Assembly: GCF_947500995.1 (NCBI RefSeq)
Contig: NZ_CANMUA010000006.1
Span: 62,001 to 126,000, forward strand
Direction: 5' to 3'
Length of the DNA stretch: 64,000 nucleotides
DNA from: an uncultured Serinicoccus sp.
GTDB taxonomy: Bacteria > Actinomycetota > Actinomycetes > Actinomycetales > Dermatophilaceae
The notes beneath the pieces were generated by a model, which saw only the letters and a list, made by a program, of their open reading frames with translations, did no database searches and was not told the origin of the DNA. Below are positions 10,741 to 43,369 of this stretch, piece by piece; position 1 is the first letter of the stretch, and each line of letters begins with the position of its first letter. The translations under genes and the position numbers were made by a program.

Positions 10741-10825
10741 GCTCGCTCAACGACGAGGCGTCGTGCCGGTGTTCCCGGGACCTCGGCCCAGGTGCGCCAC
10801 CCCTCGGAGCGCCCCGCGCCCGCGG

Positions 10826-12295
10826 TCACAGGGCACCGACGGGCAGGACGCTGCCGACCACGAGCACCGCGGTGAGCACCCCGGTCAGCGCCCAGAGACG
10901 CGTCGGCACCTGGGACCGAGGGGGGCCGGCCTCGGTGGGGGCCGGCGCGAGCAGGACGGCGACCCAGCGCAGGTAGACCGCCAGCCCGAGGGCGATGTTG
11001 ACCGCGGCGACCAGGGCGAGCCACCACGTCTCGTCCCCGAGGACGGGTCGCAGGGCCACGACCTTGGCCACCACGCCGGCGACGGCCGGGGGCAGCCCGG
11101 CGAGGGTCAGCAGCGCCAGCGCCAGCGGCAGCGCGAGCAGCGGATGGGTGCGCAGCAGGCCGCGCTGGGCCTCCAAGGAGGTGGGTCGCGCGACCGGGGC
11201 CACGGCGACGACGGCGGCGAGGACGACGAACGCCAACGTCGTGGCGGTGACGTAGACGACCAGGTAGGACCCCGCCGCGCTGGCCGCCTGCGCGGACACC
11301 GAGGCCAGGGGCAGCAGCACCCACCCCGCCTGCGCGACCGTCGACCACGCCAGCAGCCGGACCGTGTCGTGCTGCACGAGCGCCACGAGGTTGCCCACCG
11401 TCATCGAGGCCGCGGCGAGCACGGCGACGGCGACGAGCGTGGCGCCGTCGACCGCCCCGAGGGCGCGGACGAGGACCACGAGCCCGCCGAGCGCCGCCAC
11501 CTTGGAGACGGTGGCGAGGTAGGCGGTCACCGGGAGGGGCGCGGCGGCATACGTGATGGGCGTCCAGGCGTGGAAGGGCACCGCCGAGAGCTTGAAGGCC
11601 AGCCCGGCCACGAGCAGCACCGCGGCCAGGACGACGAGCTGGGGGTGGTCCACCTGGGTGCGACCGTCGAAGCGGGTGCTCCCGGTCGCGGCGACCCAGA
11701 GCGCCGCCCCCAGCGCCAGCAGCCCGAAGGAGACCAGGGAGGTGGTGAGCAGGGAGACCGCGCCGTCCACCGCCCGGGCGCGGCGGTCCGCGGCCCACGT
11801 GGTCCGCACCAGGGCGACCAGCGCGACGGTGGGAAGCGTCGCGAGCTCGAGGGAGACGAGGAGCGAGCCGAGGTCGCCGGAGGCCGGGACCGCGACGACC
11901 CCGGCGGTCGCCGCCAGCAGCAGGGCCGTGACGACCGGCGCCCTGCCGGTGCCCTCCGGGCCGCCGTCGCGGCCGGGCGCCGCCCAGTCCCGCCAGGTGA
12001 GGACGAGGACGACGAGGGCGGCCCCGAGGGCGCACACCTGGAGCGCGGAGACGAGGTGGTCGGCGCGGTAGGCGCACCAGCCGCCCGGCAGGCACAGCGC
12101 CGAGCGGACCTCGCCAGCCCCCACCCGCAGCCCGGGCAGCGCCCCCAGGAGCCCCGCGACGAGCCCGCCGGCGCCGAGCACGAGGTGCGGCTCACGCCGC
12201 CCGGGCACGACGACGTCCAGCAGCAGGACGAGCACCGCCGCGGCCACGGGGGCCAGGACGGGCAGGACCGACACGAGACCGAGCTCCAGGCTCAT
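10826..12295 (-). CDS. nuoN: NuoN-like antiporter subunit, second (partial) Complex I
   Basis: A 489-residue antiporter-like membrane subunit with about 14 TM segments. Landmarks include FKLSAVPFHAWTPITYAAAPLPVTAYLA, carrying the lysine and proton-channel helix, LVSLELATLP with the TM5 glutamate, and LLAWSTVAQAGW. It is distinctly different from the NuoN encoded at 44.4-46.0 kb. ATG 12295 overlaps the stop of the nuoM-like gene by 4 nt. It ends the H-I-J-K-L-M-N run; 85 bp separate it from htpX, with no gene seen between. Confidence 0.85.
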   Translation of the reverse strand: MSLELGLVSVLPVLAPVAAAVLVLLLDVVVPGRREPHLVLGAGGLVAGLLGALPGLRVGAGEVRSALCLPGGWCAYRADHLVSALQVCALGAALVVLVLTWRDWAAPGRDGGPEGTGRAPVVTALLLAATAGVVAVPASGDLGSLLVSLELATLPTVALVALVRTTWAADRRARAVDGAVSLLTTSLVSFGLLALGAALWVAATGSTRFDGRTQVDHPQLVVLAAVLLVAGLAFKLSAVPFHAWTPITYAAAPLPVTAYLATVSKVAALGGLVVLVRALGAVDGATLVAVAVLAAASMTVGNLVALVQHDTVRLLAWSTVAQAGWVLLPLASVSAQAASAAGSYLVVYVTATTLAFVVLAAVVAVAPVARPTSLEAQRGLLRTHPLLALPLALALLTLAGLPPAVAGVVAKVVALRPVLGDETWWLALVAAVNIALGLAVYLRWVAVLLAPAPTEAGPPRSQVPTRLWALTGVLTAVLVVGSVLPVGAL

Positions 12296-29107: not shown

Positions 29108-30202
29108 ATGACCCTGACCCTCGAGACGGCCACCGACCGCGCGTCCTACATGGCAGCCCTGCTCGACCTCCCGGTGAGCAGCCCCCTGCAGGGCTGGGGC
29201 TACGGCGAGGCCCGGCGGGTGCTGGGTCACGAGCCGGTGCGCTACCTCGTGCGCCAGGGCGGGCGCACCGTCGGAGCCGTGCAGCTCATGCGCAAGTCGC
29301 TCGCCCCGGGCGTCAGCACGCTCTACGCCCCGCGCGGGCCGGTCCTGGCCGACCGGGCGCTGCTGCCGGAGTTCGCCCGGGCGGTCCGCCAGGTCGCGCG
29401 GCGCACCGACCACGTCCTCACGATCGAGCCGCCGGAGCCCCTCGTCGCCGGCGACAGCCCGGAGCAGGAGGACCTGGCGGCCGAGCAGGCGGTCATCCCC
29501 GACCGCATCGGCCCCTTCCGCCGGACCAAGGCCGAGCAGCCCGAGCACACCATCCTCATCGACACCAGCCAGGAGCCGGACACCGTCTTCACCGGGCTGC
29601 ACAAGATGGCCCGCCGCAACGTGCGCACGGCCACCCGGATGGGGGTGCAGGCCGGCCGGGACGCGAGCTTCGGTGACTTCTGGGAGATCTTCACCGCGAC
29701 CAACGAGCGGTCCAACCTGGGAGCCTTCCCCCGCCACTACTACGAGACGCTCCTGCGGGAGGCCGACCAGGACGGCGGTGAGGCCTACCTGCTGCTCTCC
29801 CGGCACGAGGGGCGCGCGCTCGCGGGCGGGTTCTTCCTCGGGCTCGGCGACACCACCGCCTACCTCTACGGCGGGTCGGTGCGCGACGACCGCCCGCCCT
29901 CGGAGGGTGAGAAGCGCAAGGACGCCAAGGCGCCCGACGCGTTCTACTGGTCGGCGATCACCGACGCCCACGAGCACGGCTACTCCCGGCTGGACCTGTG
30001 GGGCATCCCGCGGCTCCTGGACGAGCAGAAGCACTCCTTCGGCGTCCTGCGGATGAAGCTCAAGTTCGGGACGCAGCGCTACTGGTTCCCGGCCTACGAC
30101 CTCGCGCTGTCGCCGCTGAGCACCCCGCTGCGCACGGCGCTCAAGGCGCGCCGGTCCTACCTCAACTACCGCAGGTTCGGCACCACCGACGACGTCCTCT
30201 GA
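29108..30202 (+). CDS. FemAB-type aminoacyl transferase (peptidoglycan bridge)
   Basis: The 364-residue protein shows the two GNAT-like halves of FemX/FemA/MurM enzymes: SPLQGWGYGEAR, ARRNVRTATRMGVQ, the NERSNLGAFPRHYYETLLRE segment, YLLLSRHEGRALAGGFFL, TTAYLYGGSVRDD and the C-terminal FGVLRMKLKFGT. Such enzymes add an amino acid from aminoacyl-tRNA to the stem peptide of lipid II. Micrococcales have interpeptide bridges, so a wall role is likely (inference). A TACCCT box (29096-29101) 6 nt before ATG 29108 indicates a leaderless message. Confidence 0.87.
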   Translation: MTLTLETATDRASYMAALLDLPVSSPLQGWGYGEARRVLGHEPVRYLVRQGGRTVGAVQLMRKSLAPGVSTLYAPRGPVLADRALLPEFARAVRQVARRTDHVLTIEPPEPLVAGDSPEQEDLAAEQAVIPDRIGPFRRTKAEQPEHTILIDTSQEPDTVFTGLHKMARRNVRTATRMGVQAGRDASFGDFWEIFTATNERSNLGAFPRHYYETLLREADQDGGEAYLLLSRHEGRALAGGFFLGLGDTTAYLYGGSVRDDRPPSEGEKRKDAKAPDAFYWSAITDAHEHGYSRLDLWGIPRLLDEQKHSFGVLRMKLKFGTQRYWFPAYDLALSPLSTPLRTALKARRSYLNYRRFGTTDDVL

Positions 30203-30238
30203 GGCGCCGACGGGCGTGCGGCGTGCCATGCTGGGCCG

Positions 30239-30559
30239 ATGGACGAGCAGGCGCGCCGGGAGCTGGAGGCCAAGCGGGCCGAGGTCGTCGCCCAGATGGA
30301 CCAGCTGAGCGCTCCCGTCCAGGACCAGGGCAGCATCTCCTTCGGCAAGCGGGTCGGCGACGGCACCGCCATGGCCGTCGACCGGCTGACCGCGGTGAGC
30401 GCCCACGACAACCTGCAGGACCTCCTCGCCGGGATCGACACGGCCCTGGCCGCCCTCGAGGACGGCAGCTACGGGCGCTGCCGGGTGTGCGGCGAGAGCA
30501 TCCCCGAGGGTCGCCTCGAGGCGCGACCCTGGGCGACCACCTGCGTGCGCCACGGCTGA
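30239..30559 (+). CDS. DksA/TraR-type zinc-finger protein
   Basis: A 106-residue protein with a coiled N-terminal helix (about 1-25), a second helix with ALAALEDGSYG-R and the DksA C4-type finger reduced to C81-x2-C84-x17-C102-x2-H105; the fourth ligand is His rather than Cys. The family binds the RNA polymerase secondary channel in proteobacteria; in actinobacteria the role is less clear and it is often called a TraR/DksA zinc-finger protein. A CATGCT box (30227-30232) lies 6 nt before ATG 30239. Confidence 0.85.
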   Translation: MDEQARRELEAKRAEVVAQMDQLSAPVQDQGSISFGKRVGDGTAMAVDRLTAVSAHDNLQDLLAGIDTALAALEDGSYGRCRVCGESIPEGRLEARPWATTCVRHG

Positions 30560-30607
30560 CGCCCGAGGCCGCGGCGCTGTCCCGACCGCTATTAGGGGAG
30601 AGTAGTC

Positions 30608-32515
30608 TTGTCTATTGACATGTCTTCTACTCCACTGCACCAGCTCGAGCGCGTCGTCATCCGTTTCGCCGGGGACTCCGGCGACGGGATGCAGCTCACC
30701 GGCGACCGTTTCACCTCCGACACCGCGGCCCTGGGCAACGACCTGTCCACGCTGCCGAACTTCCCGGCCGAGATCCGCGCCCCCCAGGGCACCCTGCCGG
30801 GGGTCAGCTCCTTCCAGGTGCACTTCGCCGACCACGACATCGCCACCCCCGGGGACGCACCGGACGTGCTCGTCGCGATGAACCCGGCGGCGCTCAAGGC
30901 CAACCTGCCGGACCTGCCGCGGGGCGCGACGGTCATCGTCAACTCCGACGAGTTCACCCGGCGCAACCTCGCCAAGGTGGGGTATGCCGCCAACCCGCTG
31001 GAGGACGACTCGCTCACCGACGCGGGCTACCACGTCCACGCCCTGCCGCTGACGTCGATGACCGTCGAGGCGCTGGCCGGGTTCGACGGGCTGACCCGCA
31101 AGGAGAAGGAGCGGGCCAAGAACATGCTGGCGCTGGGCCTGCTGTCCTGGCTCTACTCCCGCGACACCGCCTCGACCGAGGCCTTCCTGCGCGCCAAGTT
31201 CGCCCAGGCGCCGGAGATCCTCGAGGCCAACCTCACCGCCCTGCGCACCGGTCACGCCTACGGCGAGACCACCGAGGACTTCGCGGTGCGCTACCAGGTG
31301 GCGCCGGCGCCGATGACGCCCGGCACCTACCGCACCATCACCGGCAACCAGGCGCTGGCGCTGGGGCTGGTGGCCTCGGCCTACCGCACCGGGCTGCCGC
31401 TGGTGCTGGGGTCCTACCCCATCACCCCCGCCTCGGACGTCCTGCACCAGCTGTCCACGCTCAAGGCGCACGGCGTCACCACGCTGCAGGCCGAGGACGA
31501 GATCGCCGCCGTCGGGATGGCGCTGGGCGCCAGCTTCGGGGGGTCCCTCGGCGTGACGACCACCTCCGGGCCGGGACTGGCCCTGAAGAGCGAGACCATC
31601 GGGCTCGCCGTGGCGACCGAGCTGCCGCTTCTGGTCATCGACATCCAGCGCGGTGGTCCCTCGACCGGGTTGCCGACCAAGACCGAGCAGGCCGACCTGC
31701 TGCAGGCGCTGCACGGCCGCAACGGCGAGTCGCCGGTCGCCGTCGTGGCCGCCCAGTCGCCGACCGACTGCTTCGACGCCGCCCTGGAGGCGGTCCGCAT
31801 CGCGACGACCTACCGCACCCCGGTCATCCTGCTGTCCGACGGCTACCTCGGCAACGGGTCCGAGCCCTGGCAGATCCCGGAGGCCGCGCAGCTGCCCGAC
31901 CTCACGGTCCGGCACACCACCGAGCCCAACGCCACCGACGAGCGCGGCGAGCCGGTCTTCCACCCCTACCTGCGGGACGAGCAGACCCTCGCCCGGCCCT
32001 GGGCGGTGCCCGGCACCCCGGGGCTGGAGCACCGCATCGGCGGCATCGAGAAGGCCGACGTCACCGGCAACATCTCCTACGACCCGGCCAACCACGACCG
32101 GATGGTGCGCCTGCGGCAGGCCAAGATCGGGGCCATCGCCGACTCCATACCGCCCCTGGAGGTGGACGACCCCAGCGGCGAGGCGCGCGTCCTCGTGCTC
32201 GGGTGGGGGTCGACCTACGGCCCCATCGGTGCCGCCACCCGGCTGGTGCGCGCCACCGGCGCGAAGGTCGCGCGGGCCCACCTGCGTCACCTCAACCCCT
32301 TCCCCGCCGACCTCGGTGACGTCCTGCGCCGCTACGACCGGGTCGTCGTGCCCGAGATGAACCTCGGCCAGCTCGCGCTGCTGCTGCGGGGGACGTACCT
32401 CGTCGACGTCCGCAGCCACACCCAGGTCCGGGGCCTGCCGTTCACCGCCGGTGAGCTCGCGCAGGTCGTCCACGAGAACCTCATGGAGGTCCAGTCGCAG
32501 GAGGTGACGGTATGA
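30608..32515 (+). CDS. korA: 2-oxoglutarate:ferredoxin oxidoreductase, alpha subunit
   Basis: The 635-residue subunit has an N-terminal gamma-type domain (VIRFAGDSGDGMQLTGDR, about 15-190) fused to the alpha pyrimidine-binding domain (TPGTYRTITGNQAL onward), followed by SYPITPASDVLHQL and TTTSGPGLALKSETIGLAV. With KorB it decarboxylates 2-oxoglutarate using CoA and ferredoxin, an alternative TCA step in many actinobacteria. TTG 30608 is chosen because AGGGGAG lies 7 nt upstream; ATG 30620 is too far from it. It overlaps korB by 4 nt. Confidence 0.93.
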   Translation: MSIDMSSTPLHQLERVVIRFAGDSGDGMQLTGDRFTSDTAALGNDLSTLPNFPAEIRAPQGTLPGVSSFQVHFADHDIATPGDAPDVLVAMNPAALKANLPDLPRGATVIVNSDEFTRRNLAKVGYAANPLEDDSLTDAGYHVHALPLTSMTVEALAGFDGLTRKEKERAKNMLALGLLSWLYSRDTASTEAFLRAKFAQAPEILEANLTALRTGHAYGETTEDFAVRYQVAPAPMTPGTYRTITGNQALALGLVASAYRTGLPLVLGSYPITPASDVLHQLSTLKAHGVTTLQAEDEIAAVGMALGASFGGSLGVTTTSGPGLALKSETIGLAVATELPLLVIDIQRGGPSTGLPTKTEQADLLQALHGRNGESPVAVVAAQSPTDCFDAALEAVRIATTYRTPVILLSDGYLGNGSEPWQIPEAAQLPDLTVRHTTEPNATDERGEPVFHPYLRDEQTLARPWAVPGTPGLEHRIGGIEKADVTGNISYDPANHDRMVRLRQAKIGAIADSIPPLEVDDPSGEARVLVLGWGSTYGPIGAATRLVRATGAKVARAHLRHLNPFPADLGDVLRRYDRVVVPEMNLGQLALLLRGTYLVDVRSHTQVRGLPFTAGELAQVVHENLMEVQSQEVTV

Positions 32516-33723
32516 CCACCGAGCTCGGCCTGCCGACCCGCCGGGGCACCGAGGGCGTGCCCCCGCTCGGGGAGGGCGAGAAGCAGACCAAGAAGGACTT
32601 CACCTCCGACCAGGAGGTGCGCTGGTGCCCCGGGTGCGGCGACTACGCCGTGCTCGCCGCGGTGCAGGGCTTCCTGCCCGACCTCGGGCTGCGCCGCGAG
32701 AACATCGTGTTCGTCTCCGGGATCGGCTGCTCCAGCCGGTTCCCCTACTACCTCGACACCTACGGGATGCACTCCATCCACGGGCGGGCCCCGGCCATCG
32801 CCACCGGCCTGGCGACCTCGCGGGAGGACCTCTCGGTGTGGGTCGTCACCGGCGACGGTGACGCCCTGTCGATCGGCGGCAACCACCTCATCCATGCGAT
32901 GCGGCGCAACGTCAACCTCACGATCCTGCTGTTCAACAACAAGATCTACGGCCTGACGAAGGGACAGTACTCCCCCACCTCGGACGTCGGCGCGGTGACC
33001 AAGTCGACCCCGTCCGGCTCGGTGGACCACCCCTTCAACCCGGTCTCGCTCGCGCTGGGCTCGGAGGCGACCTTCGTCGCGCGGACGATGGACTCCGACC
33101 GCGCCCACCTCACCGAGGTGCTCCGGGCCGCCGCCGCGCACCGCGGCACCTCCCTGGTCGAGATCTACCAGAACTGCCCGATCTTCAACGACGGCGCCTT
33201 CCAGCTGCTCAAGGACCGGGACGAGGCGACCGGCCGGGTGGCGCACCTGCGCGCCCACGAGCCGGTGCGGATCGGCGCCGAGGGGAGCCCGGAGGCGAAG
33301 GTCGTCGTCCGCGACCCCGAGGGCCGTCTGCAGGTGGTCCCGGAGCAGGCCGTGCCCGCGGGGCACACCGTCGTCGTGCACGACCCGACCGACCCGGACC
33401 CCACGAGCGCCTTCGGGCTCTCGCGCCTGGACGACCCGAGCATGCAGACCGTCCCCATGGGCATCTTCCGTCAGGTGGAGCGCCCCACCTACGACGACGG
33501 CGTGCGCGAGCAGGTGCAGGAGGCCACGGCCGGGACCACCAGGGACACGGCCTCGCTCGACGCGCTGCTGCGCGGCCGGGACACCTGGACCGTCGACGGC
33601 ACCCGCCCGGGGCAGGTCGAGCAGCTGCTCGAGGGAGAGACCACCGAGGGTCCGACGCCGGCGGCCGGGGAGGCGCTCGCCGAGGAGGGCGAGGAGGTCT
33701 ACGAGGACGAGGGCACCCCCTAG
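32512..33723 (+). CDS. korB: 2-oxoglutarate:ferredoxin oxidoreductase, beta subunit
   Basis: The 403-residue thiamine-diphosphate and [4Fe-4S] subunit has RWCPGCGDYA (C39, C42), SGIGCSSRFPYY, GDGDALSIGGNH (Mg/TDP loop) and NNKIYGLTKGQ. The usual region ends near residue 330; about 70 extra acidic C-terminal residues (EGETTEGPTPAAGEAL...) have no match I recognise. It is translationally coupled to korA and its stop codon carries the -10 box of the next gene. KorAB makes reduced ferredoxin, which is relevant to the NADH-module-less Complex I set in this window. Confidence 0.93.
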   Translation: MTTELGLPTRRGTEGVPPLGEGEKQTKKDFTSDQEVRWCPGCGDYAVLAAVQGFLPDLGLRRENIVFVSGIGCSSRFPYYLDTYGMHSIHGRAPAIATGLATSREDLSVWVVTGDGDALSIGGNHLIHAMRRNVNLTILLFNNKIYGLTKGQYSPTSDVGAVTKSTPSGSVDHPFNPVSLALGSEATFVARTMDSDRAHLTEVLRAAAAHRGTSLVEIYQNCPIFNDGAFQLLKDRDEATGRVAHLRAHEPVRIGAEGSPEAKVVVRDPEGRLQVVPEQAVPAGHTVVVHDPTDPDPTSAFGLSRLDDPSMQTVPMGIFRQVERPTYDDGVREQVQEATAGTTRDTASLDALLRGRDTWTVDGTRPGQVEQLLEGETTEGPTPAAGEALAEEGEEVYEDEGTP

Positions 33724-33732
33724 GATGCGGCG

Positions 33733-34683
33733 GTGACGGACGAGGCCGAACGCCGTCGGCAGCACGGCACGGCCTACGGCTTCCTCGCCTACCTCCTGTG
33801 GGGCGTCTTCCCGCTCTACTTCGCCGCCCTCCGGCCGTCCGGGCCCTGGGAGATCGTCGCGCACCGCATCGTGTGGACGCTGGTGCTGTGCCTCGCGGTC
33901 CTGCTCCTCACCCGCGACCTGCGCTGGATGGTGCAGCTCGCCCGGACCCCCCGGCGGCTGGGCGGGGTCATGCTCGCCGGCCTGTTCATCGCGGCCAACT
34001 GGGGCATCTACACCTACGCCGTGCTCACCGGGCACGTCACCGAGGCGGCGCTGGGCTACTTCCTCAACCCCCTGGTGACCGTGGCCCTCGGCGTCCTCGT
34101 CCTGCGCGAGCGTCTGCGCAGGCTGCAGTGGGTCGCCGTGGGCATCGGCGCCGCGGCCGCGGTGTACCTCTCCGTGGACTACGGTTCGCCGCCCTGGATC
34201 AGCCTTGCCCTGGCCTGCTCGTTCGCCAGCTACAGCCTGCTGAAGAACCGCCTGGGCGTGTCGCTCAGCCCGCTGCGCTCGCTCGTCGGTGAGACGGCGA
34301 CGGTGCTGCCGCTGGCGCTGCTCATTCTGTGGTGGCTCGACCAGACCGGGCAGACCACGTGGGGCGGCGACGGCGAGCTGCACACCGTCCTGCTCATGTC
34401 GACCGGCCTGGCCACCGCCGTACCGCTGCTGCTCTTCGCCGCCGCGGCGAGCCGGGTGCCGCTGTCGACGATCGGCCTGCTGCAGTTCCTCACCCCCTTC
34501 CTGCAGCTGCTCACCGGCGTCCTGCTGCTCGGCGAGCACGTGCCCGCCTCCCGCTGGGTCGGCTTCGCCCTGGTCTGGGTCGCCCTGGTCGTCCTGTCCG
34601 CCGACATGGTCCGCCAGGTGCGCCGCACCCGGGCCGAGCGTCGCGCCGCAAGAATGCCCTCATGCGTCGCCAACCCCGAATAA
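33733..34683 (+). CDS. rarD: RarD/EamA-family permease
   Basis: The 316-residue protein has ten TM helices in two EamA repeats. GTAYGFLAYLLWGVFPLYFA, AANWGIYTYAVLTGHVTEAALGYFLNPLV and LSTIGLLQFLTPFLQLL are family hallmarks of RarD (chloramphenicol-sensitive protein). It transports an unknown metabolite. GTG 33733 follows a TAGGAT box (33721-33726) by 6 nt, so the gene has its own leaderless promoter within the korB stop. The last residues RMPSCVANPE lie at the junction with the low-G+C island, so the C-terminus may have been altered by that insertion (inference). Confidence 0.9.
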   Translation: MTDEAERRRQHGTAYGFLAYLLWGVFPLYFAALRPSGPWEIVAHRIVWTLVLCLAVLLLTRDLRWMVQLARTPRRLGGVMLAGLFIAANWGIYTYAVLTGHVTEAALGYFLNPLVTVALGVLVLRERLRRLQWVAVGIGAAAAVYLSVDYGSPPWISLALACSFASYSLLKNRLGVSLSPLRSLVGETATVLPLALLILWWLDQTGQTTWGGDGELHTVLLMSTGLATAVPLLLFAAAASRVPLSTIGLLQFLTPFLQLLTGVLLLGEHVPASRWVGFALVWVALVVLSADMVRQVRRTRAERRAARMPSCVANPE

Positions 34684-36719
34684 TCACGTTTAACTCACCG
34701 CGGGACCCACATCCACAATCTACGGCGCGCCGGCGGTGCAATTTTTCGAATCACATGTATCAGAAGTCAAGTATTGTCTCAGCACCAGGTCGACCGGAAC
34801 CGATCCATAAATAACATCTCGCAGAAAATTTGAACTCCAACTCCATAAACAGTTGGCGTGCGGCCCGTTAGGCATAGCCCAACAGTCCTGAATTGCCTCG
34901 TAAGCAACCTTGGCATGCTCGTCCGCCACCAAGACCGCATCACCATATGGGACTGGAAGGCCAAGCCCACGAGCAAGCCCCTCGGATATCTCGCGGTTTG
35001 CCATCATCGTCGCAAGAAAATCTTGAGCAATAGTCCGATTTGGCCCAAAACTGGAAACGAAAGCAGTGTGTATCATGTAGACCCCTGGAGCGGAATTTCC
35101 GGGCCTAGGGAAGGGTTCAACAGTGACCGAATCGGCTATGGCCGCGTATGAGTGACGTGCTGCCAAGGTGTCGACCAGTACCGCCGCCTCGCCAGTTGCA
35201 AATCTTTCTCGTGCCCTTTCGTGCCCGGGCCCCAATCTTCGAAGGTCAGGGTGCGTCTGCATGCTTTTCCTGAAGCTCTGCAAATTCTTGACCGAGTCGT
35301 TATCCTCCGAGACTCCAATCTCATTTCCCCAGGCCTGGTCATGATCAGCAGTGAACAAGGAGACTCGGAAGTTTTGCAGGAATGGCCACCAAAGGAAGGG
35401 TTCGAGACCCCACTCCGAACTGCTCCTGACCGTCAGTCCTACGTGAGTACGGTTGCTATCAGAAAACTCGTGTGTTGCTCTCATTAGCGCATTAAGAGTC
35501 CTCAATTGGACGCTTCCTAGAAGTTCACGATTTACGTGCAGCACGACTGTATCGAGGGCGACGGGAACCCCATAGTAGGTAGTGCCGTTCTCCAGGCGCT
35601 TCCAATACCGTGAAGTCTCACTTCCTGCAGATATCTCCCTTGCGGGCGATATCGCTCGTATGGCTTCGGCGGCAGCCAACTCCCCGCACCAGTCGTCGGC
35701 TCCCACTATCGCGTCTAGAACACGCGTTGTTTTCGCATCGAAGCCCGCCTTTAACGCCGCCCTCAATTGGCGTCCGCCTGAATGTTTCAAATGTATAGCA
35801 CGGACCCCAAAGTCGGCTTCCAACTCCCGTCGAACGCCCTCAAGACCCGCCTTTAAATCCACCTCACTCGCAATGGAGAAGGTTCTTGCAAACTCTTCTA
35901 GGCGTAGATGCCTGTTCCTTCTCCAACGCCTGCCATTATTATCTGTATAAGCAATAGACAAGGACACTGAGTCCGATGATGCTCTTCCCACTACATGCTG
36001 GCCGGGATTGGCAGAGCGTTGGTAGAAGTATGATTGCTGCACACCAGCCTCGTCATATGTCCTAATCGACACATGCGCAGCTGGAAAGTTGGAGATATTA
36101 GACAGCTTCACCAACCGAGAATCCAAGAGCCAGGCGGAGATTTGAGACGCATGTTCGCGGCGAGAGCGTCGCTGTTCCTCCTCGCGCTGACGGTAGAGTT
36201 GTCTGAGCTGCGCGACGGTGACGCAAAGACCGACTAGTGCGATGACCGCTCCGGCAACCAAGGCAGCCGTTCTGATCCATTCCATGACCATTGAGGTCCC
36301 CACTTCTGCGGCTTGACTCCTCTTGGACACTTCGGGGGAGACAAGGCGCTGTGACGGAGTGCAGTTCATGTTGTCTGATACGGACTGGACTGATCCTACT
36401 CCAAAGTACCTAATCTAGAGGTAGTTCCAGACGCGAAGCGCATGCTCTGCGAAGGCAGCGGCCAAAGAAGTACTCGCTCTGGGGGGGTGAGGCGAGGCGC
36501 CACTTGCTCGTTATCCCATGTCCGCGGCGTCAAACCTGCAAGAGTGGCGCCGTCAAGAGTGCCGACCCGGTTCACCTCACCGACACTGCTTGTCGTCCTC
36601 AGGGCGTGCTCTTTCGCCTACGCGGGCTCGGAGCGACCGGCGGACCTCCCGCACGCTCTCGAATCTGGGTCCGCTTTCAGACTGGTCGTCCGTCGCGATG
36701 CGGTGTCGTCGGCCTGCTG
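34684..36719. other. Low-G+C genomic island, about 1.9-2 kb
   Basis: Composition falls abruptly after the RarD stop to around 50 % G+C (sampled lines 43-57 %) and returns to the normal level by about 36.5-36.75 kb. The island holds one gene (34720-36291). The segment 36292-36719 has intermediate composition, no convincing ORF on either strand and no recognisable remnant. No integrase, transposase, tRNA or direct repeat was found at its edges. The window-wide GTATGCC heptamer is absent within it. Confidence 0.7.
34720..36291 (-). CDS. Membrane-anchored protein with solute-binding-like domain (island gene)
   Basis: This 523-residue protein (from ATG 36291; RBS GGGGA 5 nt upstream; in-frame ATG at 36369 lacks an RBS) has one TM helix (about 8-29) followed by a strongly basic segment, RQREEEQRRSRRE, which predicts the C-terminus inside the cell. 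A beta-rich domain (about 48-134; SWLLDSRLVKLSNIS, TDNNGRRWRR) follows. Residues about 139-509 read like a family-1 solute-binding protein: DLKAGLEGVRRELEADFGV, YYGVPVALDTVVLHVNREL, FATGEAAVLVDTLAAR, VEPFPRPG, LGLPVPYGDAV, and an MBP-like W-S-S-N-F-L-R-D-V-I tail. No ABC genes lie nearby. About 50 % G+C versus about 73 % around it points to transfer. A ligand sensor is guessed; the function is unknown. Confidence 0.75.
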   Translation of the reverse strand: MVMEWIRTAALVAGAVIALVGLCVTVAQLRQLYRQREEEQRRSRREHASQISAWLLDSRLVKLSNISNFPAAHVSIRTYDEAGVQQSYFYQRSANPGQHVVGRASSDSVSLSIAYTDNNGRRWRRNRHLRLEEFARTFSIASEVDLKAGLEGVRRELEADFGVRAIHLKHSGGRQLRAALKAGFDAKTTRVLDAIVGADDWCGELAAAEAIRAISPAREISAGSETSRYWKRLENGTTYYGVPVALDTVVLHVNRELLGSVQLRTLNALMRATHEFSDSNRTHVGLTVRSSSEWGLEPFLWWPFLQNFRVSLFTADHDQAWGNEIGVSEDNDSVKNLQSFRKSMQTHPDLRRLGPGHERARERFATGEAAVLVDTLAARHSYAAIADSVTVEPFPRPGNSAPGVYMIHTAFVSSFGPNRTIAQDFLATMMANREISEGLARGLGLPVPYGDAVLVADEHAKVAYEAIQDCWAMPNGPHANCLWSWSSNFLRDVIYGSVPVDLVLRQYLTSDTCDSKNCTAGAP

Positions 36720-36761
36720 CACGCGGTGCAATTTTGCACACCGTGCAGGGTTTCGTATGCT
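36720..36761 (+). promoter_or_regulatory. TetR operator and promoter of the TetR/MMPL operon
   Basis: A 26-bp imperfect palindrome (36720-36745) has half-sites CACG-cg-GTGCAA and TTGCAC-ac-CGTG. It overlaps a promoter formed by TTGCAC (36734-36739), a 16-nt spacer and TATGCT (36756-36761). Transcription would start at about 36768, directly at GTG 36769. The arrangement fits negative autoregulation of the regulator-exporter pair (inference). Confidence 0.7.
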
Positions 36762-36768
36762 CAAGGGC

Positions 36769-37437
36769 GTGACTGTGCGATCGGACTCCGCGGGGGGCCG
36801 CGGGCCCGACCCCGCGGCGCCGGGCCGCCGCGAGCTCAACAAGGTGCGCACCCGCGAGGCGATCGTCGGGGCGCTGCGCGAGCTGGTCGCCGAGGTCCCC
36901 GCCGCGGACGTCACCGTGGACCAGGTCGCCGAGCGGGCCGGGGTGTCCCGCCGCACCTTCTTCAACTACTTCGGCAGCATCCCCGCGGTGCTCAGCGCCG
37001 TCTTCGCCGACCACGCGGCCGCGATGATCGCCCGGCTGGACCCCGAGGTCATCGGTGACGACCCCGTCACCGCCCTGCGCGGACTGACCCGCACGCACGG
37101 CATCCCCGAGGACCTGCTCGGCTGGTTCGTCGCCCTCAACCGCCACGCCGCGGACACCGACGCGACGGTCCTCCTCGAGCGCACGGTCTGGGCCGACATG
37201 GCCGCGTGGCTGCGCGAGCGCCTGCACGACACGCTGCCCGAGGCCGACCCGCTCTTCGTGGCCACCCTGGCCTCGGCCGTCATGAGCTGCTTCCAGGCCA
37301 CCGAGGAGGCGTGGCTCAAGGATCTCGACGTCGACCGTCCCCAGCAGCTCTCCCCCGCCGACGTCACCCGCTTCCACGACCACCTGGACCGCGCCCTCGG
37401 CCTGCTGGCCGACGGCTGGCGCTCCCCCTCCGCCTGA
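36769..37437 (+). CDS. TetR-family transcriptional regulator of an MMPL exporter
   Basis: The 222-residue repressor has a TetR helix-turn-helix at about residues 20-65: REAIVGALRELVAEVPAADVTVDQVAERAGVSRRTFFNYFGSIP (as TREAIVGALREL and VSRRTFFNYFGS blocks). The C-terminal ligand domain includes HRHAADTDATVLLERTVWADM-type helices. GTG 36769 is chosen since the -10 box TATGCT covers the alternative ATG 36757 and the message would start at 36768. It precedes the MMPL gene by 18 bp and a 26-bp palindrome lies over its promoter, so it should control both genes. Confidence 0.85.
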   Translation: MTVRSDSAGGRGPDPAAPGRRELNKVRTREAIVGALRELVAEVPAADVTVDQVAERAGVSRRTFFNYFGSIPAVLSAVFADHAAAMIARLDPEVIGDDPVTALRGLTRTHGIPEDLLGWFVALNRHAADTDATVLLERTVWADMAAWLRERLHDTLPEADPLFVATLASAVMSCFQATEEAWLKDLDVDRPQQLSPADVTRFHDHLDRALGLLADGWRSPSA

Positions 37438-37455
37438 CCCACCGAAAGGACCACC

Positions 37456-40233
37456 GTGGCCACCCTGCTGCACCGACTGGGGCGCTGGTGCGCCCAGCAC
37501 CGCCTGGGCGTCGTCGCCATCTGGGCCGCCGTGCTCGGACTCACCGTCACCGGCATGCTCACCATGGCCAAGCCGCTGTCCAACGAGTTCTCCATCCCCG
37601 GCAGCCGCTTCGAGGCGGTCCTGGAGACGCTGCAGGAGGAGATCCCGGACGCCGCGGGCACGACGGGCACCGTCGTGTTCCGCAGCGACGACGGCTTCAC
37701 CGACGCCCAGCGCTCGGCCGTCGCCGACGCCGTGCAGGAGTGGGAGGAGCTGGACGGCGTCACCGCGGTCGACCCGTTCGAGGCCCAGGACCAGCTCGAC
37801 GCCACCCAGGGCGACCTCGAGGACGGGCGGAGCGAGCTCGCCGACGCCCGCGAGCAGCTGGCGGACGGACGTGACCAGCTGGAGCAGGGACGCGCCGACC
37901 TCGAGCAGGCCCGGCAGGAGCTGACCGACGGGCGTGCCCAGCTCGAGGAGGGGCAGGACGAGCTCGACGCGCAGGCCGCCACCCTCGAGGAGTCGCAGGC
38001 CGAGCTGGACGCCCAGCTGGAGCAGCTCGAGGCCGGTGTCGCCGCCGGGCAGGTCCCGCCGGAGGCCGAGCAGCAGGCCCGCGCCGAGATCGCGGCGGGG
38101 CAGGCGCAGCTCGACGCCGGCCGGGAGCAGCTGGCCGCCGCCCAGGCCGAGATCGACGCCCAGCGCGAGCAGCTCGAGGCCGGCGAGGAGGAGCTCGCCT
38201 CGGGCGAGGAGGAGCTGGAGAGCAGCGCCGCCGAGCTGGAGGACGGGGAGGCCGAGGTCGCCCAGGGCGAGGAGGACCTGGCCGCGGCCGCCCGCCTCGC
38301 CGACCTCACCGACGGCTTCCGGGTCGTGAGCGAGGACGGGACCACCGCGCTCACCCAGGTCTCGGTCGCCGACGCCGAGGGCTTCATCCCGCCGGAGACC
38401 ACCGAGGCCATCCAGCGCATCGGCAACGACGTCGAGAGCGAGGGGGTGCAGGTCGACTTCTCCAAGGAGATCACCGACGACCTGTCCAGCCTGCTCGGGC
38501 CGGGCGAGGTCATCGGCCTGGTCATCGCGGCCGTCGTGCTGCTCGTCATGCTGGGCAGCCTCATCGCCGCCGGGCTGCCGATCCTCATGGCCCTGGTCGG
38601 CGTCGGGGTCGGGCTGACCGGCGCCCTCGCCCTCTCCGCGTTCATCGACATGCAGTCGATCACCCCGGTGCTGGCGCTCATGCTGGGCCTCGCGGTGGGG
38701 ATCGACTACTCCCTGTTCCTCATCAACCGGCACCGTGAGCAGCTACGCCGCGGTATGCCGGTCGCCCCCTCGATCGCGCTCGCGGTGGGCACCTCCGGCA
38801 ACGCGGTGACCTTCGCCGGCCTGACCGTCATCATCGCCCTCGTCGCGCTCACCCTCACCGGCATCCCCTTCCTCGGCATCATGGGCATCGTGGCGGCGGC
38901 GACGGTCGCCATCGCCGTCCTGGTCGCCATCACCCTCACCCCGGCCATGCTCTCGCTCATGGGTGAGCGGGTGCTGCCCCGGCGGGCGCGCTCCGGCGCC
39001 GTCCAGGGGCGCCACGAGGAGTCCCCGACCGAGCAGGCCGACGACCTCGGCCGCGGGTGGGCCGCCCGCGTGCAGCGCCACCCGTGGCTCTCGCTGGCGG
39101 GGGTCCTCCTCGTCGTCGGCGCACTGGCATGGCCCACCGCGCAGCTGCGCCTCGGGCTGCCGGACGGCGGGACCGAGCCCGCCGGCTCCACGGCATACAC
39201 CACCTATGACACCGTCCGGGAGGAGTTCGGTGCCGGGGCCAACGGCCCGGTCCTCGTCGTGGCCGAGCTGGACGAGCCGGTCGCCGAGGGGGACACGGCG
39301 CTCTTCACCACCCAGGCCGACCTGGGCGAGGAGCTGGCCGCCGCCGACGGGGTGGAGCAGGTGCTGCCGGCCGGCGTCAACGACGACCGTGACGTCCTCG
39401 CGTTCCGGGTGCAGCCCGAGGGTGGCCCGGCCGACGCCTCCACCGAGGCGCTCGTCGACCGCCTCGGCCCCGCGGTCGAGCAGATCGGGCAGGACCAGGG
39501 CGCGACCCTGGGGCTGACCGGCCAGACCGTGGCGAACATCGACGTCTCGGAGCAGCTGGCCGACGCGCTGCCGATCTACCTCGTCGTCGTCGTCGGACTC
39601 TCCCTCATCCTGCTGCTGCTCGTCTTCCGGTCCGTCGTCGTGCCGCTGCTGGCGACCGGTGGGTTCCTGCTGAGCATCGGTGCCGCCTTCGGTGCCGTCG
39701 TCGGGGTCTACCAGCTGGGCTTCGCCTCCAGCTTCTTCGGGGTCAACGAGGCCGGCCCGATCCTGTCGTTCCTGCCGATCCTGCTCATCGGGATCCTCTT
39801 CGGCCTCGCCATGGACTACCAGGTCTTCCTGGTGTCGGCGATGCGCGAGGAGCACGTGCACGGGCGGGAGGCCCGGGACGCGGTCGTGGCCGGCTTCAAC
39901 CACAGCGCGCGGGTCGTCACCGCCGCGGCGATCATCATGATCTCGGTCTTCGCCGGCTTCGTGTGGGCGCACCTGACGATGGTGCGACCCATCGGCCTGG
40001 GCCTGGCCGTCGGTGTCCTCGTCGACGCCTTCCTCGTGCGGATGACGCTGACCCCGGCGGTCATGTCGTTGCTCGGCGAGCGGGCGTGGTGGCTGCCGCG
40101 CTGGCTGGACCGGATCCTGCCCGACGTGGACGTCGAGGGCGCCAACCTCGAGCGTCACCTCGGGACGTCGACCGGAGCCGGTGAGCAGAGCGACCCGCCC
40201 GGTCAGGAGGCGGAGCCCGCCCCGACCCGCTGA
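37456..40233 (+). CDS. MMPL-family exporter with a long coiled-coil loop
   Basis: A 925-residue RND-type MMPL transporter with two six-TM halves. TM1 is near residues 17-37, then an outer loop that contains about 165 residues of heptad-like coiled coil (about 112-280) with repeated Q-L-x-x-G-x-x-x-L units. AVGIDYSLFLINRHREQL and GLAMDYQVFLVSAMREEH are the paired D-Y motifs of the proton relay. Mycobacterial MMPL proteins export lipids; drug export is also possible. GTG 37456 has GAAAGGA upstream. Its last 31 nt overlap the converging DUF1648 gene. Confidence 0.9.
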   Translation: MATLLHRLGRWCAQHRLGVVAIWAAVLGLTVTGMLTMAKPLSNEFSIPGSRFEAVLETLQEEIPDAAGTTGTVVFRSDDGFTDAQRSAVADAVQEWEELDGVTAVDPFEAQDQLDATQGDLEDGRSELADAREQLADGRDQLEQGRADLEQARQELTDGRAQLEEGQDELDAQAATLEESQAELDAQLEQLEAGVAAGQVPPEAEQQARAEIAAGQAQLDAGREQLAAAQAEIDAQREQLEAGEEELASGEEELESSAAELEDGEAEVAQGEEDLAAAARLADLTDGFRVVSEDGTTALTQVSVADAEGFIPPETTEAIQRIGNDVESEGVQVDFSKEITDDLSSLLGPGEVIGLVIAAVVLLVMLGSLIAAGLPILMALVGVGVGLTGALALSAFIDMQSITPVLALMLGLAVGIDYSLFLINRHREQLRRGMPVAPSIALAVGTSGNAVTFAGLTVIIALVALTLTGIPFLGIMGIVAAATVAIAVLVAITLTPAMLSLMGERVLPRRARSGAVQGRHEESPTEQADDLGRGWAARVQRHPWLSLAGVLLVVGALAWPTAQLRLGLPDGGTEPAGSTAYTTYDTVREEFGAGANGPVLVVAELDEPVAEGDTALFTTQADLGEELAAADGVEQVLPAGVNDDRDVLAFRVQPEGGPADASTEALVDRLGPAVEQIGQDQGATLGLTGQTVANIDVSEQLADALPIYLVVVVGLSLILLLLVFRSVVVPLLATGGFLLSIGAAFGAVVGVYQLGFASSFFGVNEAGPILSFLPILLIGILFGLAMDYQVFLVSAMREEHVHGREARDAVVAGFNHSARVVTAAAIIMISVFAGFVWAHLTMVRPIGLGLAVGVLVDAFLVRMTLTPAVMSLLGERAWWLPRWLDRILPDVDVEGANLERHLGTSTGAGEQSDPPGQEAEPAPTR

Positions 40234-41198
40234 CCCGCGGCGCGCAGCAGCGTCCGGGCGCCGACCCGCGCGGCCTGGTCACCCTCGGTGATCCGCAGCG
40301 CGAGCCGGCGCCCGGTGCGCAGGTAGACCACGATGCCGGGACCGCCCCGGTCCACGATGTAGGCGGTGCGGTCCGGGAGGGCCCGCAGCCCGATCCCGCC
40401 CCAGTGCATCGGGTCGAGGTCCTGGACGTCCGCCCCGGCGACCTGCTCGGCGCGCACGCGGGCCACCGGCACCGGCAGCACCCGCGACCGCACCCGGAGC
40501 CCGTCCTCGTCGACCTCGACGGTGACGGCCGACCAGAGCAGCGCCAGCCCGCCCGCGCCCAGCCCGGTGACGAGGACGACCGCGAGCAGCACCACGCCCT
40601 CGCCGGCCACGACCAGCACCACCGCGACGAGGGCGAACAGCACGAGCAGGCCGACGGCCAGCACCGTCAGGGTCCGGGACGAGACGTCCGAGGCCCACGG
40701 GTGCACCGGCTCCACCGCCCGGCCACGCACCGGCTGCACGCGGGAGCGCTCGGGGACCAGGTCGGCCAGCTCCTGCGCGCTCGGCACCCACCGGCCGTGC
40801 ACGGCATACCCCACGAGCCCGGCGAGCAGCGCGCCCAGGACGGCCAGCAGCGGCCACCCCTCGCGGACGCCCTCAGGGCCGTCGACGCCCACCCGCCACG
40901 CGGTGACGACATAGAGCAGGACCGCACCCCAGGAGACCGCCGCGAGCGCCGTGAGCACCCAGCGGCCCCAGCTCGGCGGGACCAGGCGGCGCGCGACGGA
41001 GGCGACGGCCGCGAGGACGGTGCACACCACCACGGTCGCGAGGACCCCCGCGACGAAGCCCGGCCCGCTCGCGAAGCCGTCGGGCGCCCGGCCCGACCAG
41101 TGCGTCGGGACGCGGTCCGGGGGCGGCACGACGGTCAGGGCGAGCAGCAGGGCCGCCAGCGGCAGGATCGCCCAGAGTCCGGCCAGGGTGCGGCGCAC
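40203..41198 (-). CDS. DUF1648-type membrane protein
   Basis: The 331-residue protein has about six TM helices. The N-terminal DUF1648-like block reads VPPPDRVPTHWSGRAPDGFASG with the conserved P-x-H-W, followed by a short helix pair and a C-terminal cytosolic beta domain (WSAVTVEVDEDGLRVRSRVL) with DPMHWGGIGLRALPDRTAYIV that resembles bacterial PH-like domains. The function is unknown. GTG 41198 has AAGGAGA 7 nt upstream, so the open frame to 41285 is not used. The region 41199-41374 before the PhoX gene carries both divergent promoters. Confidence 0.8.
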   Translation of the reverse strand: MRRTLAGLWAILPLAALLLALTVVPPPDRVPTHWSGRAPDGFASGPGFVAGVLATVVVCTVLAAVASVARRLVPPSWGRWVLTALAAVSWGAVLLYVVTAWRVGVDGPEGVREGWPLLAVLGALLAGLVGYAVHGRWVPSAQELADLVPERSRVQPVRGRAVEPVHPWASDVSSRTLTVLAVGLLVLFALVAVVLVVAGEGVVLLAVVLVTGLGAGGLALLWSAVTVEVDEDGLRVRSRVLPVPVARVRAEQVAGADVQDLDPMHWGGIGLRALPDRTAYIVDRGGPGIVVYLRTGRRLALRITEGDQAARVGARTLLRAAGQRVGAGSAS

Positions 41199-41374
41199 GT
41201 CCGGTCTCCTTCCGGTCGGGGGGAGGTCCAGCGTAGTCGCCGCGACCGGCGCGAAGACGTCACCGGCTCGACCGCAAGCCTTCACCTCGACGACGCCGGG
41301 AGGGACATCGACCGGGCCTAGGTTCGCAGACGTCCGGGGTCACGGCCCGGACCGTCCCGAACGGAAGGACCCTC

Positions 41375-43369
41375 ATGAGCCAGCTCACCGGGCGCCGGAG
41401 CCTGCTGCCGCTCCTCGCCGCCCACCCCGGCGGACGCAGCGCCGCGACCTGTCGCTACCGCTGCGGGGACGCCTGCTCGCAGCCGGTGCCCAACACGAGC
41501 AGCAACAGCTACTTCGGGGACGTGGTGCAGTCCGCCGTGGCGCGCCGCACGGTGCTCGCCGGAGGCACCGCCGCGATGGCGGGGGTGGCGTGGGCCGCAG
41601 CCCCGGGCACGGCGGCCGCGGCCGGGGAGGCGGAGCGGGGCCTGCCGGGGACGGAGGGCCGACGCGGCGGTTTCCCCTCCATCTCACCCACACCGGCCGA
41701 CGTCGACGACCTGGTCGTGCCGGAGGGCTTCACCTGGGCCCCGGTCATCTCCTGGGGCGACCCCGTCGAGCCCGGCGCCCCGCGCTTCGACGTCGACCGG
41801 CAGAGCGTGGAGGCGCAGAAGGGACAGGCCGGCTACAACGCGGACTACCTCACCCTGCTCCAGGACGGCGACCGGGGCTGGAGACGGCGGCGCGGGGTCA
41901 TCGTCGTCAACAACGAGTACACCAACCCCGAGATGATGTTCCCGGACTGGAGCGGCGAGGTCACCCCGGAGCAGGCGGAGATCGAGATGGCCGCCCACGG
42001 GATGACCATCGTCGAGGTCCGCCGCACGAACGACCGGTCCCCGTGGACGTACCAGCGGCGCGGGACCCGCAACCGTCGGATCCACGCGTGGACCCCCTTC
42101 GCGCTGGACGGCCCCGCCGCCGGGCAGGAGTGGATGCGCACCAGCACCGACCGTCGCGGGCGCCGCGTGCTGGGCACGCTCAACAACTGCGCCGGCGGGG
42201 ACACCCCCTGGGGGACGGTGCTGTCGGGTGAGGAGAACGTCAACCAGTACTTCGACGCCACCGGCGCGCCGGACCCCGAGGGCAGGCTGGCCCGCTACGG
42301 CATCACGTCCGGCGGACGCGGCTGGGAGCAGGCCGACCGCCGCTTCTCCGTGCTCGAGGAGCCGAACGAGGTCAACCGCTTCGGCTGGATCGTCGAGGTC
42401 GACCCTGACGACCCCGGCTCCACCCCGGTCAAGCACACGGCGCTCGGCCGTTTCAAGCACGAGGGAGCCACCATCCGGCTGGCCCACGACGGGCGGGCGG
42501 TCGCCTACATGGGCGACGACGAGCGCTTCGACTACATCTACAAGTTCGTCTCCCGCCGCCGCTACCGCGAGGGTGACAAGCGCCACAACATGCGCCTGCT
42601 CTCCGACGGCGACCTCTACGTCGCGCGGTTCACCGGCGACGGCCTGCAGGACGGGCAGTACGACGGCGACGGCGAGTGGCTGCCGCTCGTGGTCGGCGGC
42701 GAGTCACGGGTCGAGGGCATGAGCGTGGCGGAGGTCTGCACCTGGACGCGGCTGGCCGCGGACCGGGTGGGACCCACCAAGATGGACCGGCCCGAGGACG
42801 TGCAGCCCGACCCGACGACGGGCCGCGTCTACGTCGCGCTGACCAACAACACCGCGCGCACGCCGGGCCAGATCGACGAGGCCAACCCGCGGGCCAACAA
42901 CAAGTTCGGTCACGTCATCGAGTGGCGCGAGGCCGGGGACGACGCCGCCGCGCTGCGGTTCCGGTGGCGGATCGTCCTCGTCGCCGGCGACCCCTCCGAC
43001 CCCAGCACCTACTTCTCCGGCCTCGACCGGCGCGAGGTCACCCCCATCAGCTGCCCGGACAACGTCGCCTTCGACGGCGAGCCCGGCCACCTGTGGATCA
43101 GCACCGACGGCGCCCCCGGCACCATCGGCACCTGCGACGGCCTCTTCCGCATGCCGACCACGGGGCGCGACCGCGGCCTCGTCCAGCAGTTCCTCTCGGT
43201 GCCCACCGGCGCCGAGTGCTGCGGGCCGGTCATCTCCTGGACGGACCGCTCGGTGCTCGTCAGCGTGCAGCACCCCGGGGAGGGCGGCTCCAGCGCCTAC
43301 CCCTACCTCGGCGACAGCGTCCCCCGACCCGGCGTGGCGCACGTCTACCCGGGGCGGCGCCGGCGCTGA
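41375..43369 (+). CDS. PhoX-family (DUF839) Tat-exported phosphatase
   Basis: The 664-residue protein has a Tat signal with R57-R58-T-V-L after a long n-region of about 55 residues containing C-rich CRYRCGDACSQ, then AGGTAAMAGVAWAAAPGTAAAA. The beta-propeller body includes VVNNEYTNPEMMF, NNCAGGDTPWGTVLSGEEN, RMPTTGRD and CPDNVAFDGEPGHLWISTDG. PhoX enzymes are Ca/Fe-dependent extracytoplasmic phosphatases released under phosphate limitation. ATG 41375 has GGAAGGA 5 nt upstream. A CTTCACC direct-repeat-like stretch near 41280 is too weak to call a Pho box. Confidence 0.9.
   Translation: MSQLTGRRSLLPLLAAHPGGRSAATCRYRCGDACSQPVPNTSSNSYFGDVVQSAVARRTVLAGGTAAMAGVAWAAAPGTAAAAGEAERGLPGTEGRRGGFPSISPTPADVDDLVVPEGFTWAPVISWGDPVEPGAPRFDVDRQSVEAQKGQAGYNADYLTLLQDGDRGWRRRRGVIVVNNEYTNPEMMFPDWSGEVTPEQAEIEMAAHGMTIVEVRRTNDRSPWTYQRRGTRNRRIHAWTPFALDGPAAGQEWMRTSTDRRGRRVLGTLNNCAGGDTPWGTVLSGEENVNQYFDATGAPDPEGRLARYGITSGGRGWEQADRRFSVLEEPNEVNRFGWIVEVDPDDPGSTPVKHTALGRFKHEGATIRLAHDGRAVAYMGDDERFDYIYKFVSRRRYREGDKRHNMRLLSDGDLYVARFTGDGLQDGQYDGDGEWLPLVVGGESRVEGMSVAEVCTWTRLAADRVGPTKMDRPEDVQPDPTTGRVYVALTNNTARTPGQIDEANPRANNKFGHVIEWREAGDDAAALRFRWRIVLVAGDPSDPSTYFSGLDRREVTPISCPDNVAFDGEPGHLWISTDGAPGTIGTCDGLFRMPTTGRDRGLVQQFLSVPTGAECCGPVISWTDRSVLVSVQHPGEGGSSAYPYLGDSVPRPGVAHVYPGRRRR

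Follow-up and report, generated by a model that had tools for sequence, protein, structure and literature searches.

Solute-binding proteins (SBPs) are the textbook extracytoplasmic receptors. The 64-kb stretch of DNA analyzed here (the window) carries, on an island of low G+C content, a gene that couples a domain of this kind to a membrane helix predicted to hold it inside the cell. This raises the question of how the gene arrived, what its product is related to, and what a binding domain might do on the inner side of a membrane.

A Clean Insertion of One Gene

The insert, ∼2.07 kb from 34648 to ∼36716, has a G+C content of 55.5%, compared with a mean of 73.4% elsewhere in the window (SD 2.1%, minimum 69.0%; 578 windows of 2069 bp). 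Third-codon-position G+C is 0.55 in its gene versus 0.96 and 0.97 in the RarD-like and MMPL-like genes. The initial annotation had described a foreign low-G+C island at 34684–36719 with one ORF; comparison with the same locus in relatives bears this out and sets the edges at 34648 and 36705/36716. The features of the locus are as follows.

33733–34683, plus strand: RarD/EamA-like gene, its C-terminal codons replaced by the insert (named by eye from sequence)
34648–36716, no strand: inserted segment (2069 bp at most), from blastn to the RarD loci of 29 other genomes of the genus
34720–36291, minus strand: gene for a protein with a transmembrane (TM) helix, a β domain, and a MalE-type domain; likelier start M27, 523 amino acids
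34732–35859, minus strand: solute-binding domain of the MalE type (limits approximate; starts near residue 145 of the M27 form)
35890–36138, minus strand: juxtamembrane domain with YTDxxGxRWRRN (approximate limits), also present in standalone ORFs elsewhere
36211–36267, minus strand: TM helix, residues 9–27 of the M27 form, followed by a basic linker (Kyte-Doolittle)
36718–36747, no strand: palindrome TGCACNNNGTGCAATTTTGCACNNNGTGCA, part of the native site, preceding the TetR-like and MMPL-like genes and bounding the insert on the right
from about 36760: TetR-like and MMPL-like genes on the other flank (named by eye from sequence)

A search with the RarD-like protein in the 31 genomes of the genus returned 30 loci, one genome (G009) giving none. 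The site is empty in the four closest relatives (L036–L039), where the window aligns up to 34647 and resumes from 36706 or 36717; by blastn, the right edge of the insert lies between 36705 and 36716. These four loci carry 77, 59, 69, and 69 bp of their own sequence between the flanking blocks. The insert has replaced these native 59–77 bp and, with them, the final codons of the RarD-like gene; in the window, the RarD-like product now terminates in the insert-derived ARMPSCVANPE. In the downstream flank, matches to the TetR region extend over ∼200 bp or more in 16 of the 29 other loci and over 47–160 bp in five, and are absent from eight. The palindrome TGCACNNNGTGCAATTTTGCACNNNGTGCA is exact in four other loci of the genus (L036, L038, L040, and L043), near-exact in others, and perhaps the operator of the TetR-like gene. 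The insert is a clean horizontal insertion of one gene.

As the initial annotation had noted, mobility genes are not apparent; none were noticed by eye among the ORFs of 30000–42000. No convincing target-site duplication or inverted repeats were found at the window insert, and a 13-bp repeat, GCGGTGCAATTTT, at 34733 and 36723 may be due to chance. No RNA family reached its gathering threshold in 34000–37500, and promoter and terminator scans were uninformative.

Repeats of other kinds occur at this locus and in the window. In L040 (G011) and L041 (G027), the intergenic gap that follows the RarD-like gene contains several copies of a short repeat whose core is CAACCAnnnGCGACGCnCGGT. A tandem periodicity of 21–63 bp at 37811–38216 in the MMPL-like gene mirrors long repetitive, coiled-coil-like segments of its product, and a 22-bp unit is repeated 3.2 times (97% match) at 2407–2476.

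A MalE-Type Domain behind a Membrane Helix

The single ORF that fills the G+C trough was called at 34720–36369 on the minus strand (549 amino acids). A homolog in a second genome of the genus (G007), together with a GGGG stretch upstream of M27, suggests that translation starts at M27 (36291). The single TM helix and the basic stretch behind it, previously noted for this protein, are evident by Kyte-Doolittle hydropathy, with a mean of 2.56 over 19 residues, one lysine or arginine before the helix, and five in the next 15 residues. The juxtamembrane domain is, at a guess, β-rich and Ig-like; the TM and juxtamembrane part has no sequence match in the PDB.

The proposed homology of the remainder to maltose-binding protein (MBP) is upheld by several searches. 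With phmmer, residues 216–532 of the long form match Thermotoga maritima MalE (2fnc, 6dts) at E = 1.6e−14, and the NCBIfam MalE model matches at E = 4.7e−10 with 38.8 bits, far below its 291-bit cutoff. Pfam SBP_bac_8 recognizes the M27 form (31.6 bits versus a cutoff of 27). Support from Pfam requires the trimmed start, since the untrimmed 549-residue form gives no Pfam SBP match. A profile of three members of the family described below reaches T. maritima MalE2 at 6e−34, with individual chains of E. coli MBP matched at about 1e−18. Among these other members, those of G794 and G1215 pass the SBP_bac_8 cutoff and that of G007 falls below it (18.7 of 27). By significant family match, the domain can be counted among the MalE-type solute-binding proteins.

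A positive-inside argument gives the likely orientation. Across 14 of 14 proteins with this N-terminal module (five full-length and nine standalone, with starts that we chose), the 15 residues after the helix contain two to six lysines or arginines and the segment before it contains none or one; a start at M1 would give the window protein four such residues ahead of the helix. Net charge is a weaker signal than this count, being zero after the helix in six of 12 module proteins. No lipobox was seen by eye. Because of the excess of basic residues after the helix, the positive-inside rule would place the binding domain in the cytoplasm. The K/R counts and hydropathy thus favor a single N-out/C-in helix with a cytoplasmic binding domain, the inward-facing arrangement that the initial annotation had proposed.

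Five Members and a Wider Set of Standalone Modules

The initial annotation could not name the closest relatives of the window protein; four are now found: one in G007, of the same genus (40% identity to the window protein), and one each in G794, G1215, and G1258, which belong to another family of the same class. Composition and protein matches suggest that the source organisms are actinobacteria. Membership of the G1258 protein is based on a profile (A5) covering positions 10–547 of 554 and on reading by eye. In all five, the TM and juxtamembrane module is fused to a MalE-type domain, as judged from their sequences. Within the genus, the gene is present in two of 31 genomes, at different places, and is therefore not fixed at one site throughout. 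With a two-member profile, the window genome and G007 were the only carriers of the full-length gene among 186 genomes of their family. Searches able to reveal full-length members covered overlapping sets of 97, 186, 198, 180, and 224 genomes; the set of 198 added none, that of 180 added one (G1215), and that of 224 added one (G1258). Given so few members across these genome searches, the five-member family looks rare.

The N-terminal part was also used as a query against 396 and 394 genomes, and a standalone module against 198 genomes of the order. Among seven non-self matches in the set of 394, only that of G794 was full-length. The module also occurs alone: a 187-residue standalone ORF matched nine of the 198 genomes of the order, and eight of the nine matches resemble module proteins. 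The ninth (G1081), by eye an HNH-endonuclease-type protein, was left out. Other candidates were set aside: a match in the phylum (G142) falls in the reading frame of a GatA-like gene, that of G634 covers only the TM segment within a 258-residue frame, the frames in G622 and G907 lack the module, and stops interrupt the matches in G648, G719, and G929.

In G522, from another genus, a standalone TM and juxtamembrane ORF (L073:2311–2874, minus strand) is divergent to relatives of the TetR-like and MMPL-like genes (35% and 43% identity, respectively, to those of the window) and occupies the same slot as the window insert. This standalone ORF has one plasmid match, in Kocuria, at 28%.

The window protein has no homolog in plasmid or phage records, and peptide-pattern scans of genome contigs and viral contigs gave no relatives. 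Nine plasmid records matched the G007 member; for the G794 member, there were 87 matching plasmid records, of which 15 were listed, and four phage-collection records. In none was 80% of the query covered at one place, and all of the matches listed are confined to the binding domain or begin no more than ∼20 residues ahead of it.

A maximum-likelihood tree was built from 51 binding-domain rows (47 different), comprising the five members and 46 other rows; a tree with four members was also built. A branch supported at 100/100, and present in 100% of 200 bootstrap trees, separates the five from the other rows. The tree is unrooted, so they form a clade only where the root lies elsewhere, and the program warned of long branches and unusual composition. 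Within these limits, the tree groups the five members together.

The Sugar Cleft Appears to Be Kept but Altered

The binding domains of the five members share 18%–42% identity. We aligned them, numbered on E. coli MBP, with 40 distinct rows of ordinary SBPs (44 before removal of identical ones), a set that over-represents maltose-type proteins because its rows were chosen by matching the family profile. D65, F155, and W340 are kept in five of five members and W66, the T. maritima state, in four; an MP pair near position 330 is also present in all five. Glu111, invariant in the 40 ordinary rows, is Asp in every member. Trp230, likewise found in 40/40, is replaced by A, S, D, G, and D, and the adjacent G228 and P229 are lost as well. 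Position 158 is Trp in 5/5 members and in 0/40 ordinary rows; E. coli MBP also has Trp here. The five therefore do not carry the maltose cleft set (D65, E111, Y155/F155, W230, and W340) as a whole.

Seventeen columns share no letter between the five members and the 40 ordinary rows, a count inflated by the greater divergence of the five (mean identity to ordinary rows 0.19–0.30, versus 0.29–0.42 for the control set). Five random ordinary rows yielded no exclusive column in 300 draws, and a hand-picked diverged five (E. coli, T. maritima, L008, L093, and L090) yielded one. Of the 17 columns, several (e.g., 108, 262, and 299) are ones at which E. coli MBP, too, differs from the ordinary rows; at columns 111, 228, and 230, both PDB proteins agree with all 40.

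Passages of PMC3265398 indicate that, in E. coli MBP, mutation of W230 to alanine lowers maltose affinity about tenfold and that of W340 about a thousandfold, and that a four-residue change including E111Y confers sucrose binding. The natural reading of the alignment is a sugar cleft that has probably been retained in altered form.

Gene Neighborhoods of the Members

The initial annotation presented a lone gene, which holds for the window but not for G007 and probably not for G794. In G794, a glycoside hydrolase family 13 (GH13) gene lies 75 bp downstream on the same strand and encodes a protein without an evident signal peptide. The nearest solved relatives of this enzyme are oligo-1,6-glucosidases; it passes the cutoff of the NCBIfam alpha,alpha-phosphotrehalase subfamily model (622.9 of 535 bits), misses that of the treC equivalog model (661 of 799), and matches the PADLOC GlgB model at 9.8e−43. 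The convergent neighbor in G1215 is an MGH1-like glycoside hydrolase (28.9 bits versus a cutoff of 27). By raw count, a hydrolase thus adjoins two of the five members. The G1258 member lies beside phosphoribulokinase-like and regulatory genes (named by eye), and the neighbors of the window member are the RarD-like and TetR-like genes.

The window insert contains no permease or ATPase genes, and no sugar-importer genes were seen by eye next to the G794, G1215, and G1258 members; in G1215, an ABC ATPase gene is located 7 kb away from the member. The accompanying permease and ATPase genes that would identify the receptor of an ABC importer were not found.

In G007, the gene lies between a 5′-nucleotidase-like gene and a sugar ABC operon (named by eye). 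The site is present with both flanks and without the gene in G027, the window's own genome, and G018; in G017 and G016, the match is confined to the permease side. Imperfect direct repeats of 92 and 98 bp (90.8% identity; L014:8332–8423 and 10776–10873) delimit the element; they are copies of the 3′ end of the permease gene, as if the incoming DNA had brought its own copy of this end. No recombinase gene was seen by eye within the element, and the sugar ABC genes beside it belong to the insertion site. Inside the element, a 176-residue ORF, with a start that we chose within a 272-residue frame, begins 4 bp after the stop codon of the member. Two clear hydrophobic segments lie close to its end, and residues 31–76 form a marginally hydrophobic stretch. 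This partner ORF received no Pfam, NCBIfam, or PADLOC name, has no plasmid match, and was not matched in 59 genomes of the family, a set without G007 and hence without a positive control. The window insert has neither such direct repeats nor a partner ORF.

Of the two roles suggested in the initial annotation, defense and signaling, the former is not supported so far. PADLOC gave no match for the window protein, for the members in G007 and G794, or for the partner ORF of G007, so none of the members scanned matches a known anti-phage system as modeled there. Two proteins near the G794 member bear on this point.

L083:10363–11361, minus strand: 332-residue protein upstream of the member, with a nuclease-like FEVKT segment seen by eye
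L083:3290–4336: Hypoth_Ymh protein, 3.7 kb away, matching PADLOC Aga_HEPN weakly (E = 0.001)

The 332-residue protein has no Pfam, NCBIfam, or PADLOC match. The evidence for phage defense is slight, consisting of the patchy distribution and one weak match in one neighborhood.

Discussion

The altered but retained cleft, the predicted inward tether, and the hydrolase and membrane-protein neighbors lead us to read the gene as a mobile accessory gene whose product is a binding protein that is anchored in the membrane, faces the cytoplasm, and would act as a receptor or holder of a carbohydrate-like ligand; we give this reading an even chance of being right. We infer the ligand, the topology, and the signaling or delivery step as follows. 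The N-out/C-in helix would keep the binding domain on the cytoplasmic side of the membrane. There the domain could capture a carbohydrate-like solute that is produced inside the cell and is probably something other than maltose. On closure, the domain might then pass a signal via the juxtamembrane domain, either to the membrane itself or to a membrane protein acting as its partner, as in G007; alternatively, the ligand might be presented to a partner hydrolase, as in G794. The window copy, without a neighboring partner, would act alone or with a host protein. More broadly, and with somewhat less than even confidence, we propose a class of inverted SBPs, encoded by a mobile actinobacterial gene, in which the tether turned a maltose-type protein inward, the cleft was retuned, and in some members the protein became coupled to a hydrolase or small membrane protein. 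The membrane would then bear an intracellular receptor for sugars or sugar-like metabolites.

Points against this receptor-or-holder reading are that a hydrolase adjoins no more than two of the five members and that the topology depends on K/R counts and hydropathy with starts that we chose. The cleft also supplies an argument against it, in that a protein with W230 lost and E111 changed may not bind sugar. The domain might then have been retired from binding to become a protein-protein scaffold without a ligand, as the additional loss of G228 and P229 and the low identity would allow; D65, F155, and W340 are nevertheless kept in all five, as expected of a cleft still in use, and we regard a scaffold as quite unlikely. 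The same two positions weigh against an ordinary exported binding protein, anchored by its N terminus on the outer face and serving a distant sugar ABC transporter. Almost invariable export of the MalE-type domain family speaks for such a protein, as does the ordinary MalE-type SBP encoded in the window genome and in other genomes of its family. It would, however, have to accommodate changes in 5/5 members at E111 and W230, residues kept in 40/40 ordinary rows, as well as the missing lipobox (by eye), the K/R distribution in 14/14 module proteins (0–1 before the helix and 2–6 after), and an insert devoid of ABC genes. On the K/R count and the cleft, an outward-facing ordinary receptor is disfavored, and we consider it unlikely.

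An anti-phage or abortive-infection gene, in which the binding domain senses a compound made during infection and the TM part acts on the membrane, would fit a patchy single-gene island of foreign composition that encodes a TM segment and a sensor-like domain, and equally the mobile form in G007, in which a second gene encodes a small membrane protein. The Aga_HEPN match and the nuclease-like protein near the G794 member point the same way. The PADLOC results for the members scanned and the G007 partner argue against it, as do the carbohydrate enzymes adjoining two members and the lack of window-protein homologs in phage or plasmid records; this role, too, seems improbable.

If the receptor-or-holder reading is true, a mobile, cytoplasm-facing family with a partial sugar cleft would amount to a novel means by which carbohydrates inside the cell are sensed or held at the membrane. 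Since MBP folds well in the cytoplasm, ligand screens should be easy.

Among known systems, the MalE/maltodextrin-binding proteins (Pfam SBP_bac_8; 2fnc, 6dts, and E. coli MBP) are the closest, with homology over the whole domain, D65, W340, and the MP near position 330 shared by 5/5 members, and W66 by 4/5, as in T. maritima. In contrast to them, the members have a TM anchor, a binding domain predicted to face inward, and no lipobox by eye; E111 is changed to Asp and W230 lost in 5/5, and the window insert lacks transporter genes. The type II periplasmic-binding fold is also found in cytoplasmic proteins, including MqnA, HisG, and the effector domains of LysR proteins. These likewise use a binding fold inside the cell, but they are soluble and belong to other families, rather than being membrane-tethered relatives of MalE. 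The standalone TM and juxtamembrane ORFs of related genomes share the TM helix, the basic linker, an xFxDxxGxxW-like motif, and their occurrence as single genes, but lack the binding domain, and no family name was found for them. The titles and abstract openings listed in searches of the open-licence literature describe no cytoplasm-facing, membrane-tethered SBP. A functional parallel is GlnH-GlnX of Corynebacterium glutamicum, in which, according to the abstract of PMC9769921, a binding protein and a membrane protein are proposed to control a kinase rather than transport. Unlike the single window protein, that system is described there as two proteins, of which the binding protein is periplasmic (PMC9769921).
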